DNA of 46,206 bases, taken from a virus. Numbering within the stretch: position 1 is the first letter of the stretch; the number at the start of each line of letters is the position of its first letter. This document shows positions 2,341 through 35,589 of the stretch, one piece after another. A model generated the notes under the pieces. That model was not told the DNA's origin, did no database searches, and worked only from the letters and a program-made list of their open reading frames with translations. The position numbers were made by a program, and so were the translations under genes. The stretch lies in IMG/VR virus record IMGVR_UViG_3300019360_000068, positions 1 to 46,206 of that record; one strand, given 5' to 3'.

Positions 2341-4524
2341 ATGGACAGACTACGCGCAAGCGAATTGTGCAAGGCCGAGCTTAAGAAGCATGGTCTAACG
2401 GAATGGGGCGTTCGTCTCACGACGGATGCTAACCAGCCGTTCCTCGGTATGTGTGTGCATCGGGATAAGGTAATCATCCTGAACGCACACCATATCGATA
2501 TCCATCCTGATTTGGAAGTGGTGGATACGATTAAGCATGAAGTGGCCCACGCGCTTACGCCGGGACACGCTCACGATGAAGTATGGGCCGCAAAGGCTCG
2601 TGAGATTGGCTGCACTAACACGCTGCCATGCTCACATCTGAGCTTTCCTGACCATGTTATCGATGCTATCCGTAGCGGTGCTACCATCGAGATGACAGTC
2701 GAGGAAGAAGTTCACGTTATCCGTAGGCCGAAGTATACCGTTACTCGGCTACAGGATAAGTGTCCTCACTGTGGTAAGGTGGCAGTCGAACGCTCATCAA
2801 CGGAATTCATCGATTCCCAGACGGGTAACACTGTCAAGTGGATTACGCTGGAATGCTTCCACGTTATCCAGAAGATTATTCCGAGAGGCACGCCTTTCGA
2901 GACGATGGTTTCCAATTTCTGGAAGCCTGAAATCGCTGCGTGTAAGCACGAATGGGAGAAGCATCAGTGTACTAAGTGCGGTGAATTCCGCCTGATGCCA
3001 TTCCAAATCGTTGGTGCTAAGGCCGCTGAGGCTGGATTGTCCACTCAAAAGGGTTTTGGCATCTTCGATGAAATGGGTCTAGGTAAGACTGTTCAGGGTC
3101 TTGCCATTCCCAAATTCCACAAGCAGTATCTTCCCTTTCTCGTAGTCACCAAGTCTGCAATTACTTTCCAGTGGTTTAAGCAGATTATTAGGTGGCTTGG
3201 TCCTGACCATCTTCCGCAAATCATCCGCACTTCTAGGGATGTGATTCTGCCTGGCCTCAAGGCATATATCATTCCTTACGACCTATTGCGTCGCTTCCCA
3301 CGCGAAAAGCTGGCTAAGGCTGGCTTCAAACTTATTCTGTTGGATGAATGCCAGCAGATTAAGAATCCTGATAGCTCTCGCACACAGGAAGTTCGTAGGC
3401 TTGTAGGGATTGACCCTACTTGCAAAGTACTTCCACTTAGTGCTACTCCCTGGAAGAATCGTGGTGGTGAATTCTTCCCCGTTCTCAACATAATGGACCC
3501 TATCAAGTTCCATTCCTATCAGGGATATCTTGATACATGGGTTGATTTCTATTACGAAGGTCCTAAGAAGAAGATGGGTGGTATTAGTAATCCTAAGAAG
3601 TTCCAAGCATACGTTGAATCACTCCTGATTCGGCGTGAATACAATGAGGTAATCGAGGATTTCCCCAGCGTAAATCGTATGAAGTTGCCTGTTCAGTTGG
3701 ACGAACTGAGTCAGGGAACCTACGATGATACTGAGAGTGCATTCGTCGCATGGTATAACGAAGCAGTTATCGGCGGCGAAGAAGATAAGATTAGCAGTAT
3801 TGAAATCTTGGCTCAGATGGCGCGTATGCGTCACGTTACAGGCCTCGCTAAGATTCCTGCTACTCTTGGTTTCATTGAAGAGTTTATCAATGATACCGAA
3901 AAGAAAATTGTTATCTTCGTTCATCATAAGGATGTTGGTGTCCTCATGACTGGCGCGCTCACTAATACCGATAAGAAAACTAATCCTGATTGGTATGAGC
4001 TTGCACAGACAATCAAGGCTGAAGGTATTAAGATTCTGAACTATACCTCAGCACACACTGGTAAGCCTGAAGGCTCTATCATTCAGGATACCTTCAATGC
4101 TACGCCACGCTGTATCATGGTGGCTTCTACTCTGGCATGTGGTGAGGGATTGGACCTCCAGACTTGTGCTGATGCTATCATGCATGAGCGTCAGTGGAAT
4201 CCTCAGAATGAGGACCAAGCTGCACCAGGTAGATTTAGGAGAATTGGTCAGCTCTCAAATGTTATTGGTATTACATTCCCAGAGGCTGAGGGAACTATTG
4301 ACGAACATCTCGATGGATTAGTGGAATCCAAGCGTCGTCAATTTCACGATGTAATGAATAAGTCTGAACTCAATACTTGGAGTCAGGACTCATTCGCTCG
4401 TGAACTTGCAGAACTAATCGTTGCCAAGCACAAGAAGAAGAATGTTGGTAAGGCAAAGACTAACATTACTTCTGCTGCATCATTCAAGCCACGCACTCAA
4501 TTTGCACTCATTCTTGATTACTAA
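2341..4524 (+). CDS. SprT-like metalloprotease domain fused to SNF2 helicase
   Basis: A 727-residue two-module protein. Residues about 1-120 look like a SprT/Spartan-type zincin: HEVAH at 66-70, with further histidines in GHAHDEVW (75-82) and IGC after it, the usual SprT layout. Cysteine pairs at 141/144 and 210/213 suggest zinc ribbons. The SNF2 ATPase follows: Walker A in DEMGLGKT (243-250), Walker B as DECQ (335-338), SAT (367-369), motif V GEGLDLQ (601-607) and motif VI with RFRRIGQ (631-637). SNF2 proteins translocate on duplex DNA; SprT proteins cut DNA-bound proteins. A combined role in stripping or degrading proteins on DNA is inference. Gene start is set by the open frame; the ribosome site is weak. 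Confidence 0.85.
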   Translation: MDRLRASELCKAELKKHGLTEWGVRLTTDANQPFLGMCVHRDKVIILNAHHIDIHPDLEVVDTIKHEVAHALTPGHAHDEVWAAKAREIGCTNTLPCSHLSFPDHVIDAIRSGATIEMTVEEEVHVIRRPKYTVTRLQDKCPHCGKVAVERSSTEFIDSQTGNTVKWITLECFHVIQKIIPRGTPFETMVSNFWKPEIAACKHEWEKHQCTKCGEFRLMPFQIVGAKAAEAGLSTQKGFGIFDEMGLGKTVQGLAIPKFHKQYLPFLVVTKSAITFQWFKQIIRWLGPDHLPQIIRTSRDVILPGLKAYIIPYDLLRRFPREKLAKAGFKLILLDECQQIKNPDSSRTQEVRRLVGIDPTCKVLPLSATPWKNRGGEFFPVLNIMDPIKFHSYQGYLDTWVDFYYEGPKKKMGGISNPKKFQAYVESLLIRREYNEVIEDFPSVNRMKLPVQLDELSQGTYDDTESAFVAWYNEAVIGGEEDKISSIEILAQMARMRHVTGLAKIPATLGFIEEFINDTEKKIVIFVHHKDVGVLMTGALTNTDKKTNPDWYELAQTIKAEGIKILNYTSAHTGKPEGSIIQDTFNATPRCIMVASTLACGEGLDLQTCADAIMHERQWNPQNEDQAAPGRFRRIGQLSNVIGITFPEAEGTIDEHLDGLVESKRRQFHDVMNKSELNTWSQDSFARELAELIVAKHKKKNVGKAKTNITSAASFKPRTQFALILDY

Positions 4525-5082: not shown

Positions 5083-5355
5083 ATGACACTCACAAGACGC
5101 AATCGAAATGGCAAGATGTATTCTCTCACTAACATCTGTGCCAGTGGAAGGACAAAGATTAGCCTCGTCGATAAAGGAACGTCGATTGAGGTTGATGTTG
5201 ATATTCAGCGTCTTGTAGAATGCTGGCACGATTGGGTCATCAATCGGACACACATTCATAATGCCTTTCCAGGACTTAGTGAGCCTCAGAGAGAATTTCT
5301 CTTAACTGGACTAACCGAAGAAGATTGGCAGCATACCTTTTCCACCGGAGACTGA
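5083..5355 (+). CDS. Hypothetical phage protein
   Basis: 90 residues. The C-terminal part (CWHDWVINRTHIHNAF followed by LSEPQREFLLTGL and EEDWQ) resembles a small protein type often seen near phage replication genes, in which an FP.LS..EREFL..G pattern is common; this is recall, not a search. AAGG ten bases upstream supports ATG 5083. The structured element directly upstream may control it. Function unknown. Confidence 0.65.
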   Translation: MTLTRRNRNGKMYSLTNICASGRTKISLVDKGTSIEVDVDIQRLVECWHDWVINRTHIHNAFPGLSEPQREFLLTGLTEEDWQHTFSTGD

Positions 5356-5358
5356 ACA

Positions 5359-5658
5359 ATGATGACTATCGAGCAGGCTATCAAGTCAACTATCAACTCA
5401 ACACCAGGCATCAAGAGTGTGGACCTCGTTCTCCATGTAATCGGCTTGTTGGGTGGTAAGTTGAATACTGCTCACTATTTCCACGAAATAGAAAGACTGG
5501 TTTTTAAAAAGGAAATTGTAGTGGTAAATTACGTCTTACCTGAGATGAATTACCGCATGAAGACAATGTATTTTCCTGGAGGAACCAGTGTCGAAATCGA
5601 GGAAGTTGAAACTCCTACAGGGAGTGCTAGTGCTTCAGACTGTTTACAAGGGCGATGA
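5359..5658 (+). CDS. Hypothetical phage protein
   Basis: 99 residues, starting at ATG 5359 or 5362, with GGAG about eight bases before. The N-terminal half looks like a compact helix bundle, possibly winged-helix (SVDLVLHVIGLLGG, then HEIERLVFKKEIVVV), which would suit DNA binding, but this is weak. The end overlaps the next gene in another frame. Confidence 0.6.
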   Translation: MMTIEQAIKSTINSTPGIKSVDLVLHVIGLLGGKLNTAHYFHEIERLVFKKEIVVVNYVLPEMNYRMKTMYFPGGTSVEIEEVETPTGSASASDCLQGR

Positions 5659-9461: not shown

Positions 9462-9768
9462 TCGTCAGCAGTAGTTACCAGATATCTGGAAAAATTCTGA
9501 CTATTCAGATACTCGCTTGCACTCCGAAGTATCATCTATCTTGCTGGGAGCCAGTGTTTCCTCGACGCTGGGTAAAGAGAGATAGAGAATAGAAAATGCC
9601 ATGTCGGGGCCACAAAGGTATTTGGTAATAGGGGAGGGGCACGACCGTCTGAACGACAACTGTGCCTCTCCCCGCTATTTTTAACTAGTCTTAGCCCTAA
9701 ACTCTGGACATTTGGCTGATGTCCCAATAACCCTAACTCGTCGTAAGAAACTAACGGTAGAGGTAGTC
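9462..9768 (+). other. Gap with palindrome, hairpins and terminator
   Basis: This 307-base gap has no supported gene. It begins with a 12-bp palindrome CCAGATATCTGG (9478-9489), then GATACT/AGTATC (9508-9533), the terminator at 9631-9682 and a 6-bp hairpin GGACAT/ATGTCC with a 7-base loop (9706-9724) in the leader of the next gene. The stretch between the gene end and the terminator could be a 3' UTR or a small RNA of 150-200 bases. Confidence 0.5.
9631..9682 (+). terminator. Rho-independent terminator
   Basis: GGGGAGGGGCAC (9631-9642) pairs with 9662-9673 over 12 bp with one G-U pair, loop of 19 bases, followed by GCTATTTTT. It ends the first early transcript after the recombination genes. 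Confidence 0.75.
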
Positions 9769-10071
9769 ATGTCAATTTTCGACCACTTGCTTGGTGGTAG
9801 TAAGAACGAAGATATCCCCGCGACTGAAAACGCGGAAACACCTCGTGAAGAACGACGCTGTGTCGGAAAAATCATCAAGGTATCTCCGAAGGGATGGGGA
9901 TTCATTTCATCCAAGGACATCAGTTTCACCCGGATTTTCTTCCATTGGACTTCACTGAATCAAGACACGCTGAAGTTCCTTGAGTTGAAGAACGGGATGA
10001 GAGTGGAGTTCACTCCCATTACACTGGAAGGTAAGGGATGGAGAGCCATCAAAATCAAAATCCTAACATAG
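9769..10071 (+). CDS. Cold-shock-domain protein
   Basis: 100 residues from ATG 9769, with AGAGGTAG upstream; an in-frame start at 9712 is less likely because the leader hairpin lies there. After a 35-residue linker comes a cold-shock domain with RNP1-like KGWGFIS (about residues 42-48) and RNP2-like IFFHW (57-61). These domains bind single-stranded RNA or DNA and can act as RNA chaperones. A second, diverged CSD gene is at 15835-16071. The end overlaps the next gene by 34 bases. Confidence 0.75.
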   Translation: MSIFDHLLGGSKNEDIPATENAETPREERRCVGKIIKVSPKGWGFISSKDISFTRIFFHWTSLNQDTLKFLELKNGMRVEFTPITLEGKGWRAIKIKILT

Positions 10072-10307
10072 TAAGTCGTCGGGAATTTCTTCAGTTACTT
10101 GCAGCCGGAGTAATTGGTCATACGCTAGATGTAGACAAATTACTTTGGGTGCCTGGACAGAAGACTATATTCCTGCCATCAGTAGATATTATCCATCCCA
10201 GTATTAGCGAAATAGTTGCACTGGAGTTGGAAAGAATGTTACCGAAAATCAAAAACTTATTCGAGCGTGACGATGCCTTCTATAAAAGAATTAGTCACGA
10301 CATATAA
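10038..10307 (+). CDS. Tat-like leader fused to a capsid N-terminus-like segment
   Basis: 89 residues. Residues about 13-30 (SRREFLQLLAAGVIGHTL) look like a twin-arginine signal: S-R-R-x-F-L plus a moderately hydrophobic stretch. The C-terminal 33 residues resemble the start of this phage's major capsid protein (gene 34339-35589): both carry ALELER, then KI, then LFERDD, then FY, with the same spacing; about 17 of 29 aligned residues are identical. It is an early-strand gene, far from and opposite to the capsid gene. Whether it is exported, or only uses a helical leader, is unknown. ATG 10038 overlaps the CSD gene by 34 bases. Confidence 0.6.
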   Translation: MESHQNQNPNIVSRREFLQLLAAGVIGHTLDVDKLLWVPGQKTIFLPSVDIIHPSISEIVALELERMLPKIKNLFERDDAFYKRISHDI

Positions 10308-10542
10308 GGAAGAAACCACATGGCACGGTAAGGTGATAGTCATGGAGATTTATCATCTTGCTATGCTAACCAAGGATAAAGCCTGGACAATTGCAGATAC
10401 AGCCTCTGGTTTAGAGGTTAGTATTGGCCTAGTCAGTGAGAATCTTCGCCTCGCTCAAGCAATACATGACGATGCGAAATTCTTAAAATGTGAGTCACGC
10501 CAAGCTGCATTAAAGAGATGGTATGCTCATCGAACTAGATAA
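10273..10542 (+). CDS. Helix-turn-helix-like DNA-binding protein
   Basis: 89 residues from ATG 10273 or 66 from ATG 10342 (AAGGTGA upstream). I prefer the longer form because PSIKELVTTYKEETTWHGKV reads as protein, although it overlaps the previous gene by 35 bases. The central WTIADTASGLEVSIGLVSE followed by NLRLAQAI matches the shape of a ParB/KorB-type or HTH module (a turn after AsgLevS, then a recognition-like helix). It probably binds DNA; it could be a regulator of the replication genes that follow. Confidence 0.55.
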   Translation: MPSIKELVTTYKEETTWHGKVIVMEIYHLAMLTKDKAWTIADTASGLEVSIGLVSENLRLAQAIHDDAKFLKCESRQAALKRWYAHRTR

Positions 10543-10692: not shown

Positions 10693-13248
10693 ATGAGTGA
10701 AATCAAGCATAAATACGTCCCAGGTATGGGGCCTTTGGGTTCCAAGTTAATGATACTTGGAGAAGCACCCTCGTATGCTGAGACTTCTGCTGGTAGACCC
10801 TTTGTTGGGCCTTCCGGTAAAGAACTTGACCGCATGTTGTATGATGCGGGAATGAATCGAAATAACTATTGGGTGACTAACGTATGTAAATACGAAGTGC
10901 CACCTAATGTTGGCAAGAAGAAGATACCCTTTCATATCCGTGCCAAGAATCATGGTATTGATATAGACCAACAGTTAACAGAACTTAGGGAGGAAATCAA
11001 TGGGATTCAACCAAATTGTATTCTTGCTTTGGGCTCTACTGCTTTATGGGCTCTATCCGGTAAGACAAAGATTGGGTCATTCCGAGGCAGTATTCTTCAT
11101 GGTATGGGTCGTAAGTTTGTTGCTACTTACCATCCTGCTCATCTACTACATGCGGCTTCTGGTGGAGAATTTAAGGGCTACTGGAATCGACAGGTAATGA
11201 TTGTTGATTTTAAAAGAGCACTTGAAGAATCGTTAACATCAGAGATTAATCTTCCTACTCGCACTCTCGAAATCTGTCGGTCATCCTACCAATTAGCAGA
11301 ATTTCGTAAGAGATACGCCGCATTCAATAGAATGAGTGTGGACATCGAATCTAACGGAACATGCATTCCTGTTTGCGTGGGTCTTGCCTTAAACAAGCAT
11401 CACGGGCTCACTGTCCCTCTCTGGAATACAGACAACATCTCTACCATACCAGATTCTGATTTGATTCAGATATGGATTATGCTTGCAGAGATGTTATGGG
11501 AAAAGGATATCATCGGTCAGAATTTCAACTATGACCGTGATAAGTTAATGAGACTTGGCTTCGTGATTCGTAATCTTAGCAGTGATACGATGATGAAGGC
11601 TCAAGCCATTAATCCTGAGCTTCCTAAAAGTCTAGGCTTCAACACTTCTATTTATACTCGCGAACCCTTCTACAAAGATGAAGGGATGTATCAAGGAACT
11701 ATCCATGACCTACTCTTAGGCTGCGCACGTGATGCGTGTGTAACCTTTGAGATTGATGATAACATGGACCCTGACATTGACGAACTAGGTCAACGCGATT
11801 ATTATCAAAATTTCCTGATGAAGTTGCCCGAGATGTATTGGGCCATCGAACGTCAGGGATTCCGAGTTGACTCCACGGAGCGAGATAAGCTCATTCGTAA
11901 ATACATCGAATGGGATGAGCGACTTCGCTATGAATTGTTCCAGTTAGTTGGAACAGAAATCAATGTAAATAGTCCAAAACAGGTATCTATTCTCCTGTTT
12001 GAGAATTTCAAACTTCCATTGCGGAGTGGAACAGGTGAAGAAGAAATTACTGCGCTACTTAATTCGCAATCAGCGGTTAAGAAACCGGAACATAGAAAAG
12101 TTTTGGAGCTTATACTGGAAGATAGGCGAGTCAGGAAGTCCATTAGTACATATCTCATGGCTCTTCCTGATTATGATGGCAGGATGCGTACTACTTACTT
12201 CCCCTGTCTTGATACTGGAAGGTCTTCTACTGGACAACAGGACCCGCCAATTAGACCATCCATACAAGTTGTGGGTGAGGATGGAAAGAAAAAAGAAAAA
12301 TCACTAGGCATCGCATTCCAAACGATGACTAAACACGGTGATGTAGGTGCTGATATTCGTGGCATGTATGTCCCGGATAATGACATTGATGAAGAGGTAT
12401 TCGTTCAAGCTGACTCTTCCCAAGCAGAAGCTAGAGTAGTCTGGCTACTAGCGGAGGATTATGAAGCACTACGACTTGTCGATGAAATTGATTACCATGC
12501 CCTCACTGCCTCTTGGTTTTTCGGTGGAACAGAAGCAGACTATTCTAAAAAAGTTCTCGGATATGAACATCCAATACGATTTGCGGGAAAAACTCTTCGA
12601 CATGCTGGACACTTGGGTGCAGGAAAACGACGAGCCGCTACTAGTGTCAATACAGATGCCAGAAAATACAAAGTGCCGATTAGTATTACTGAAGCGATTG
12701 CCGAAAGAGCTTTAATCATCTTTCACGGTAAGCAACCGAAGATTCAACAGGTCTTTCAAAATGGCGTTATCGAATGCCTCAAGCGTAATCGACAGCTTGT
12801 TGCAGGAATCCCCTACGGAATTAATTCAAAGATTGGTGGTCAGAGAACTTTTTTTGAAAGGTTTGGAGAAGAACTTTTCAGACAAGGATTCTCTTATATT
12901 CCCCAGCGTTCTATATCGGACAACACCAAAGCAGCCGGACTCAGACTCCGTGAGAGAATTCCAGGAATCAAAATTGTCATGGAATCTCACGATGCATTAC
13001 TTTTTTCCATTTCCAAATCCAAGCTACCACTCTGGATTCCCATCATTAAAGAAGAATTTGAGAGACCTATTGATTTCTCGAATTGTTCTCTACCTAGACG
13101 TGAGCTTATTATACCCTGCGAAATCGAAACTGGGTATAACTACCGAGACCTTAAGAAGTTCAAAGACTTAGCAATCGTGCATAAGCCAATAGAACCTAAG
13201 ATGGTTCCTCGAAATATAACTGAGTCATTCCTCGCGCCACTGGAGTAA
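10693..13248 (+). CDS. DNA polymerase I with N-terminal uracil-DNA-glycosylase domain
   Basis: An 851-residue fusion. Residues 1-180 match family 4/5-type UDGs: GEAPS (23-27), GRPFVGPSGKELD (34-46), and HPAHLL (147-152) as the second active-site motif. The cysteines for a typical iron-sulphur cluster are absent. A 3'-5' exonuclease follows (DIES 217-220, GQNFNYDRD 275-282, DACVTFEID 347-355), then the family A polymerase: TGRSSTGQQDPP (508-519), motif A DSSQAEAR (574-581), motif B K633-x7-GA-type helix (RFAGKTLRHAGHLGAGK), motif C SHDA (765-768). It is the replicative polymerase candidate. SPO1-type phage polymerases have a similar UDG-like N-terminus. Confidence 0.9.
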   Translation: MSEIKHKYVPGMGPLGSKLMILGEAPSYAETSAGRPFVGPSGKELDRMLYDAGMNRNNYWVTNVCKYEVPPNVGKKKIPFHIRAKNHGIDIDQQLTELREEINGIQPNCILALGSTALWALSGKTKIGSFRGSILHGMGRKFVATYHPAHLLHAASGGEFKGYWNRQVMIVDFKRALEESLTSEINLPTRTLEICRSSYQLAEFRKRYAAFNRMSVDIESNGTCIPVCVGLALNKHHGLTVPLWNTDNISTIPDSDLIQIWIMLAEMLWEKDIIGQNFNYDRDKLMRLGFVIRNLSSDTMMKAQAINPELPKSLGFNTSIYTREPFYKDEGMYQGTIHDLLLGCARDACVTFEIDDNMDPDIDELGQRDYYQNFLMKLPEMYWAIERQGFRVDSTERDKLIRKYIEWDERLRYELFQLVGTEINVNSPKQVSILLFENFKLPLRSGTGEEEITALLNSQSAVKKPEHRKVLELILEDRRVRKSISTYLMALPDYDGRMRTTYFPCLDTGRSSTGQQDPPIRPSIQVVGEDGKKKEKSLGIAFQTMTKHGDVGADIRGMYVPDNDIDEEVFVQADSSQAEARVVWLLAEDYEALRLVDEIDYHALTASWFFGGTEADYSKKVLGYEHPIRFAGKTLRHAGHLGAGKRRAATSVNTDARKYKVPISITEAIAERALIIFHGKQPKIQQVFQNGVIECLKRNRQLVAGIPYGINSKIGGQRTFFERFGEELFRQGFSYIPQRSISDNTKAAGLRLRERIPGIKIVMESHDALLFSISKSKLPLWIPIIKEEFERPIDFSNCSLPRRELIIPCEIETGYNYRDLKKFKDLAIVHKPIEPKMVPRNITESFLAPLE

Positions 13249-34338: not shown

Positions 34339-35589
34339 TTAGTAGCCGGTGGGAACTGACAGCGTATCGATGAACGCCGTAGCAGCAGGATTGCTAACGT
34401 AAAACTGGAAACCATTTACCATGTAAAAGATTTCCGCAGTGGCTACGCCACCCGAAGGTCCACGAATCTCGAAGATTTTCCGACCATCAGTGGTATAGAA
34501 ACCAATGGGCAGCATTTCTCCACGACCCCAGACTTCATCAACGATGAAATCAATACGGGTCTTGTCCCAATTGAAGGACTTACGCAGTTTGGCACCAGCC
34601 ATCTGCATATTGTCCCCAAAGTAGAGGTCCAGAGCCTCGTCCTTAGCTTCCTTGAAAATCGAGATAACAAGCTGCCCGATTTCCTCATAAGCCTGCTGCT
34701 GACAAGGGTGTAACCATGCGACAGGCTTGAAATCATTATCAAGCCCCACACGATTTCCAATTTTGTTCATTGAAAGCCGCGCAAACGGAAGAGCAAGCGC
34801 AGAGCTAGCAGCGTTCACACGATTGGAACGGATTTCAGGAGTAGCAGAGCGAGAGAAGCCCAGCCACGTCCCAGCCGATGCATTGCTGTGGTGATAAGGC
34901 ACACCATACAATGCAGGCATAGAGGCAGGATTGGTAAGACCAGCCGTCACAAGCTTATCCGTGGCGACTGCACCAGTAATAGCGGGAGTAACATCGATAC
35001 TCTTATTCTCGACATCCCACTTAGTGATAACACCCTGACCACGCGGAGTGCCGAGTGTAGTATCGAAAACCTGCACAGTCTGACCGAAACGCATCAGACG
35101 AGCACCGAAACCATCAGTGCCCAAGGTGTAAGTATCAACACCAGACGCGGTGCTAACAGCAGAAATAACACCGATAACACCAGTGCCATCCTGCATAGCC
35201 TGCGCATCCAACTGACGACGCATTTCATCAAACGCGCTAGCAGTCAGACGACGCACACCGTTAGTAATTGCCTTACGCTCATCGTCCGTAGACCACTGCG
35301 TAAGCTTGGTATATTCAATGTTCTCCGAAAGGAAAACACTAGTGAGCACAGCCTTATCAAAGGTAGGCCCACCACCACGTCCTAAGTCGCCACCATCCGG
35401 ACTAAAATACTGGAAGGAGCCCCCAGGACGAAGTTCTAACGGAACACGCATCTGTCGATTAGAAATCTTCTCGACATTGCGCTTCTTGATGCTAGAATAG
35501 AACTTGTCGTCGCGCTCGAACAGAACTTCGATTTTCTGTCGAACACGTTCAAGCTCTAATGCAGCTACTTGCGTTTCGGAAACAGCCAT
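34339..35589 (-). CDS. Major capsid protein
   Basis: 416 residues with the style of HK97-fold coat proteins of short-tailed phages: a helical N-terminus (residues about 8-35: ALELERVRQKIEVLFERDDKF), then RMRVPLELRPGGSF-like beta-hairpin (NRQMRVPLELRPGGSFQYF), a spine-helix region with RLTASAFDEMRRQLDAQAMQ, and a C-terminal YFYTTDG-type beta part (GFYTTDGRKIFEIRGPSGG). Codons are GC-ending and favourable, unlike neighbours, matching high expression. The N-terminal helix has a near copy in the early gene at 10038-10307. Strict family not proved here. Confidence 0.8.
   Translation of the reverse strand: MAVSETQVAALELERVRQKIEVLFERDDKFYSSIKKRNVEKISNRQMRVPLELRPGGSFQYFSPDGGDLGRGGGPTFDKAVLTSVFLSENIEYTKLTQWSTDDERKAITNGVRRLTASAFDEMRRQLDAQAMQDGTGVIGVISAVSTASGVDTYTLGTDGFGARLMRFGQTVQVFDTTLGTPRGQGVITKWDVENKSIDVTPAITGAVATDKLVTAGLTNPASMPALYGVPYHHSNASAGTWLGFSRSATPEIRSNRVNAASSALALPFARLSMNKIGNRVGLDNDFKPVAWLHPCQQQAYEEIGQLVISIFKEAKDEALDLYFGDNMQMAGAKLRKSFNWDKTRIDFIVDEVWGRGEMLPIGFYTTDGRKIFEIRGPSGGVATAEIFYMVNGFQFYVSNPAATAFIDTLSVPTGY

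Follow-up and report, generated by a model that had tools for sequence, protein, structure and literature searches.

The window, by which we mean the whole 46,206-nucleotide stretch analysed here (positions 1 to 46,206 of IMG/VR virus record IMGVR_UViG_3300019360_000068), contains at 10038-10307 a small gene whose product joins a leader resembling a twin-arginine (Tat) signal to a tail that resembles part of the major capsid protein (MCP) of the same phage. The relevant genes and features are as follows.

9712..10071 (+): cold-shock-domain (CSD) gene, the conserved left neighbour, overlapping the start of the leader gene (Pfam CSD, E 8.8e-9; synteny)
10026..10031 (+): likely ribosome-binding site GGAAGG, six bases 5' of the ATG (read directly)
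10038..10307 (+): leader/capsid-fragment protein, 89 aa (ATG start; relatives from scans)
10074..10118 (+): Tat-like part SRREFLQLLAAGVIG, residues 13-27 (TIGR01409 is the only NCBIfam match)
10128..10178 (+): linker DVDKLLWVPGQKTIFLP, residues 31-47, better conserved than any other part of the leader module (alignment A6)
10200..10292 (+): capsid-derived tail SISEIVALELERMLPKIKNLFERDDAFYKRI, residues 55-85 (alignment to the MCP; predicted two-helix hairpin)
10276..10542 (+): small HTH-like ORF (HTH by label alone), the conserved right neighbour, overlapping the 3' end of the leader gene (tblastn synteny)
10693..13248 (+): uracil-DNA glycosylase (UDG)/family A DNA polymerase fusion of the early replication module (Pfam UDG, DNA_pol_A)
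34339..35589 (-): MCP, 416 aa (PHROG and Foldseek)
35488..35580 (-): copied segment, MCP residues 4-34, in the N-arm (alignment to the tail of the 89-aa protein)

A preliminary description of this DNA had noticed an ungapped alignment between the tail of the protein and the N-terminus of the MCP, encoded on the opposite strand, and both observations hold. Residues 55-85 align without gaps to MCP residues 4-34 with 18 of 31 positions identical (58%) and a score of 86; 5,000 shuffles gave a mean of 27.7 (s.d. 4.3) and a maximum of 51. When the record was searched by tblastn with the 89-residue protein, only the protein itself and the MCP N-terminus were matched (E 7.5e-7 for the latter), and the within-genome blastp comparison with the MCP gave an E value of 1.5e-7. 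Chance similarity is ruled out by the shuffles and by the statistics of tails against MCP profiles, and an assembly artefact by the presence of the same pairing on many independent contigs. No named family was found for the whole protein in PHROGs, Pfam, NCBIfam or PDB, no match among cultured phages, and no fold match for its AlphaFold model, which is confident in the tail hairpin only (pLDDT about 82-95, in blocks of ten residues).

The product of 34339-35589 matches a PHROG annotated as major head protein (E 2.8e-5) and has about 250 close relatives among phage contigs. The best Foldseek matches to its model, which is of low confidence, are HK97-fold phage capsids. As the model is poor (mean pLDDT 54), copied segments cannot be mapped reliably onto the capsid. 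The capsid-derived tail is homologous to HK97-fold MCPs and lacks the complete capsid fold; with only 25-80 residues of about 416, it is a fragment rather than a capsid protein.

IMG/VR was scanned with the window protein (5 loci), alignment A1 (74 loci) and the leader-only alignment A4 (71 loci). Tails were compared with the proteins of their own record, using the essentially whole DNA of 55 other records, and with profiles built from MCP genes alone, covering three types of MCP: that of the window ('cap'), one resembling the P22 coat ('p22') and a third ('cap3'). Several records in the family are fragments. Among 92 distinct tails, 51 match an MCP profile at E<0.01 and 53 at E<0.1, where 100 shuffles per tail give expectations of 0.01 and 0.16. 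The tail is of the same type as the MCP of its own record in all 31 assignable cases (17 cap, 10 p22, 4 cap3), and within-genome matches of small ORFs point to the MCP far more than to any other protein. Scans queried with the window protein favour N-arm tails. The leader-only scan is less biased: of its 29 distinct new tails, 8 match an MCP, and no source was detectable for the others. MCP tails are thus frequent in the leader family without being universal.

Controls independent of the profiles gave the same picture. By tblastn against annotated phages, one P22-type tail matched the N-terminus of annotated P22 coat genes (E 2e-6) and another the middle of annotated P22 coat proteins (E 8e-4); these two queries matched coat genes and no leader protein in the annotated phages. 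For four P22-type tails the sole family match is phrog_283, major head protein (E 0.009 to 0.42). A member of the third capsid type had no match in cultured phages, one scan of bacterial genomes and prophages with a stringent pattern gave no match, and a PHROGs scan of tails lacking MCP similarity gave no useful result. Separately, the tail AEALRALNAMIDTWNSEAMT of the leader protein at G073:10058-10378 weakly resembles a 309-aa ORF of its own record (SDGLAVLNSMTDTWQAERLT, E 0.29), which is possibly a head-completion protein. Judged by sequence, these proteins almost certainly form a modular accessory phage family, in which a Tat-like leader and linker carry an exchangeable tail that is often a piece of 25-80 residues from the phage's own MCP.

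The leader common to the family reads RRxFLxxL, a short hydrophobic stretch, and then LDx(E/D)(R/K)LLWVPGxKTIFLP. The RR pair is invariant in 26 aligned relatives, and the hydrophobic stretch has a median length of 14 residues and a mean Kyte-Doolittle value of 1.67 (88 members), so that a twin-arginine and a hydrophobic region lie near the N-terminus as in Tat signals. An AxA motif, of the kind expected at a Tat cleavage site, occurs inside the stretch in 48 of the 88 members, at no defined position, and is missing from the window member. The linker and Tat-like part alone retrieve other family members when used as query. TIGR01409 (TAT_signal_seq, cut-off 16.7) is the best NCBIfam match for all four members tested, two of which reach or exceed the cut-off (G086, 16.7 bits; G068, 18.5) and two fall below it (the window protein, 14.2; L003, 15.1). 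The twin-arginine resemblance noted in the preliminary description is genuine and, in the window member, weak: its sole family match lies below the cut-off. The leader resembles a Tat signal and may be one. No known family was found for the conserved LLWVPGxKTIFLP. A sub-group with an LLWVPGxKLISIP-like linker (L345, L351, L359, L362, L370, L376, L384, L385, L388) has tails mostly lacking detectable MCP similarity; L362 contains VLNVRKPPRYV, which resembles a P22-type N-arm below threshold.

The tails sample several parts of three MCP types that look unrelated. Window-type tails most commonly copy the N-arm (profile 3-58); others copy the middle (223-268; G042, G053, G058, G061) or the C-terminus (385-413; G047, G058, L372). 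P22-type tails copy the N-arm (4-63), positions 247-311 (G062, G086, L352) or the C-terminal part (336-394; L147, L377, L382), and third-type tails copy the N-arm (46-101; G060, G076, G084). Some loci hold more than one piece. In the leader protein at L377:231-578, a P22-type N-arm piece is fused directly to a C-terminal coat piece; L382 has N-arm and C-terminal pieces within one protein and another C-terminal piece in a second gene; and G047, G053, L339 and L372 each carry leader genes in tandem whose capsid pieces differ (the first L339 piece was recognized by eye, below threshold). A common amphipathic helix, named in the preliminary description as a finding that would undo the capsid reading, is ruled out by the middle, C-terminal and P22-type coat pieces in other members. 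The capsid mimicry itself is strongly supported, since the pairing recurs in many phages and tail and capsid types always agree where the latter can be assigned.

Capsid pieces were also observed outside the leader family. Two leaderless ORFs, G058:15218-15541 (L237) and G041:11100-11426 (L206), start with MITF(D/N)PNGGDLGRA, resembling the start of the MCP E-loop, and end in a copy of MCP 362-392 (VSFYE-DG-LFE-RGASGG), as a miniature capsid chimera. At G063:9477-9707 (L248), a Cys-rich Zn-ribbon-like domain precedes the MCP N-arm piece QIVALEIERISSKLSSLFERDDIFFGALKK, with no Tat-like leader, and an 85-aa ORF close to the MCP gene of G017 (5250-5504) holds a copy of MCP 362-386 (WYQTDGRQLFEIRDSNG). 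P22-type coat pieces with no recognized leader are found in small or mid-size ORFs at G085:14384-14869, G062:25142-25810, G062:43595-44269, G079:16367-17176, G079:18325-19158 and G069:70-306. At G002:25013-25264, an 84-aa ORF closes with a copy of a segment from a helicase-like protein of 564 aa encoded in that record (54% over 24 aa, E 1e-4).

The placement of the window gene in the early region, also claimed previously, is supported by its position between the CSD and UDG/polymerase genes on the replication strand. After the HTH-like ORF come the UDG/DNA-polymerase-A fusion and then genes for DUF3987 and DHH proteins. In 12 records, one of them the window, the leader gene stands between the CSD gene and the HTH-like ORF. 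In G006 and G009, whose MCPs are 81-82% identical to that of the window, the leader gene is missing and gaps of 22 and 41 bp separate the CSD and HTH-like genes; it is likewise missing from all 12 other near-complete relatives with 73-82% identical MCPs. Elsewhere it lies between the polymerase and DUF3987 (G048, G056, G058), adjoins DUF3987 (G002, G044, G045, G054) or precedes an AAA gene (G061). Patchy presence and varying position mark it as an accessory gene of the replication module, with the accessory distribution and fast modular change to be expected of a decoy-type anti-defence protein. Within the window's MCP group, leader gene and MCP are on opposite strands in all 16 genomes where both can be placed. 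P22-type members are often on the same strand as the MCP, with the coat gene following a few kb downstream, so the term 'early' is not extended to them. Two further features of these genomes were observed: a SprT-like domain fused to a SNF2 helicase at 2341-4524 of the window, and, in G043 (62,483 bases), many early genes in two diverged copies about 45 kb apart. G043 may combine two related phages in one record.

Both modules are under purifying selection. Across pairs with both modules estimable, leaving out those with 13-14 aligned tail codons, dN/dS is about 0.13-0.42 for the leader and 0.15-0.29 for the tail, values that are rough given the few codons. In four pairs (G011/G012, G018/G022, G012/G043, G051/G052) the leader dS is 0.26-0.37 and the tail dS runs from 1.6 to saturation, which suggests tail replacement or a much faster change of the tail. 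Without correction for phage phylogeny, tail similarity is correlated with MCP similarity (Mantel r 0.40, p 0.004), leader similarity is not (r 0.08, p 0.24), and tails fit their own MCP better than MCPs permuted among genomes (p 0.003). Within a type, the own MCP has a mean rank of 5.5 of 14 for its tail, so the tail is an old copy that evolves separately. On the question of co-evolution raised in the preliminary description, the tail agrees with the capsid in type and in overall correlation, and close tracking of the own MCP holds at clade level only. A recent DNA duplication within the window phage is unsupported, as DNA similarity is low and tails are not nearest to their own MCP.

The best-supported mechanism, which we infer tentatively from these sequence patterns, is that the protein may serve as a capsid decoy or competitor against capsid-sensing defence. 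The protein would bind a host factor that recognizes newly made capsid protein, most likely an abortive-infection sensor that responds to capsids, and this factor would be occupied or sequestered before the real capsid protein builds up; the leader would bring the complex to the membrane or settle its fate in some other way. Each part of the MCP would answer to its own sensor or epitope, and this would account for the exchanged tails, tandem copies and patchy presence. A decoy or competitor would account for one leader with many pieces, the type agreement, the tandems, the accessory distribution, the purifying selection on tails and their faster change. Capsid sensing itself is established: the MCP directly triggers CapRel (PMC9712102) and staphylococcal Thoeris (PMC11312562), and Gol, a short MCP peptide, triggers Lit, as cited in these two papers. 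The CapRel escape sites lie near MCP residues 114-115 (PMC9712102), and Thoeris senses the assembled hexamer (PMC11312562). Against a decoy, the escape sites known for these sensors differ from the N-arm that the window protein copies, the MCP accounts for only 8 of the 29 tails in the leader-only sample, and a sensor-binding fragment might trigger the sensor instead of silencing it.

Other explanations draw on the same observations. Capsid-protein N-arms share in scaffold and lattice contacts, for example in P22 and SPP1, and N-arm tails are the commonest in the family. The protein could thus be an assembly factor, its capsid piece binding MCP, scaffold or portal while the leader holds it at the membrane, so that procapsid assembly is nucleated or regulated there. 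The Tat-like leader and the confidently modelled helical hairpin of the tail are consistent with this role. We nevertheless consider it unlikely: a gene missing from 12 of 12 near-complete relatives is not generally needed, and middle, C-terminal and mixed pieces behind the same leader would be unexplained by a single assembly role. The decoy is favoured over a nucleator because the latter would need one defined part of the capsid, while a decoy could use any epitope. Less probable again is interference, in which the fragment would poison the assembly of co-infecting related phages or exclude them. Fragments of oligomeric proteins can be dominant negative, the distribution of the gene is accessory and variable, and tail similarity tracks MCP relatedness. 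However, the phage's own capsid would also be harmed unless the fragment were sequestered, and the lack of a bacterial-genome match, in a single stringent scan, gives no sign of use by prophages.

Some segments of HK97-fold capsids make inter-subunit contacts, and the copied segments include such parts. A tail might therefore enter the capsid lattice through a swapped strand or arm and serve there as a minor component or as an internal tag for cargo, and the N-arm piece in G063 does stand behind its Zn-ribbon-like domain as if it were a tag. The position of the window-group gene in the replication module, on the strand opposite to the MCP, and its absence from many relatives make this improbable. 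We give least credence to the idea that the leader alone is functional, for instance as a membrane-active peptide, with tails as passengers captured by gene fusion. It would fit the many tails lacking detectable MCP similarity and the better conservation of the leader, but it is at odds with the purifying selection on tails and with the MCP being far over-represented as their source.

Extending the decoy reading to the whole family, we tentatively propose that phages of several capsid types may have arrived at capsid decoys repeatedly and independently of one another, each using a Tat-like leader to present interchangeable epitopes from its own capsid. If true, this would add molecular mimicry to the arms race between phages and bacteria, disarming bacterial sensors that recognize capsids. 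Bacterial immunity is repeatedly triggered by capsid proteins, and the escapes described are capsid point mutations (PMC9712102, PMC11312562). Leader-borne pieces of a phage's own capsid would represent either a new counter to capsid sensing or a new way of steering capsid assembly. In either case, the copied segments indicate which capsid surfaces are important, and each of them can be tested separately in laboratory strains.

The preliminary description knew of no system of this kind, and we likewise found no earlier description of a family combining leader and capsid fragment in the open-access literature searched. The family resembles Tat signal peptides (TIGR01409, PF10518) in its N-terminal RRxFL followed by a hydrophobic stretch of 10-20 residues. 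Unlike Tat signals, it has the conserved LDxERLLWVPGxKTIFLP after the hydrophobic part, and the window member scores under the curated cut-off. From general knowledge, it can also be compared with satellite capsid redirectors: P4 Sid and SaPI CpmA/CpmB are likewise small proteins that act on phage capsids. These are encoded by satellites, are not built from MCP fragments, have no Tat-like leader, and showed no family match to the window protein. In Gol of T4 gp23 with Lit, the MCP with CapRel-SJ46, and Mhp with Thoeris ThsB1-ThsB2, an MCP segment or surface is recognized (PMC9712102, PMC11312562). In those systems the trigger is the MCP itself, whereas the window family is a separate accessory gene with an MCP piece behind a leader. 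Polymorphic toxins and phage polyvalent proteins, modular proteins of phage-host conflict, share with the family a conserved leader, exchanged tails and a patchy accessory distribution, and differ from it in that the tails of the window family are pieces of the phage's own capsid instead of toxin or enzyme domains.
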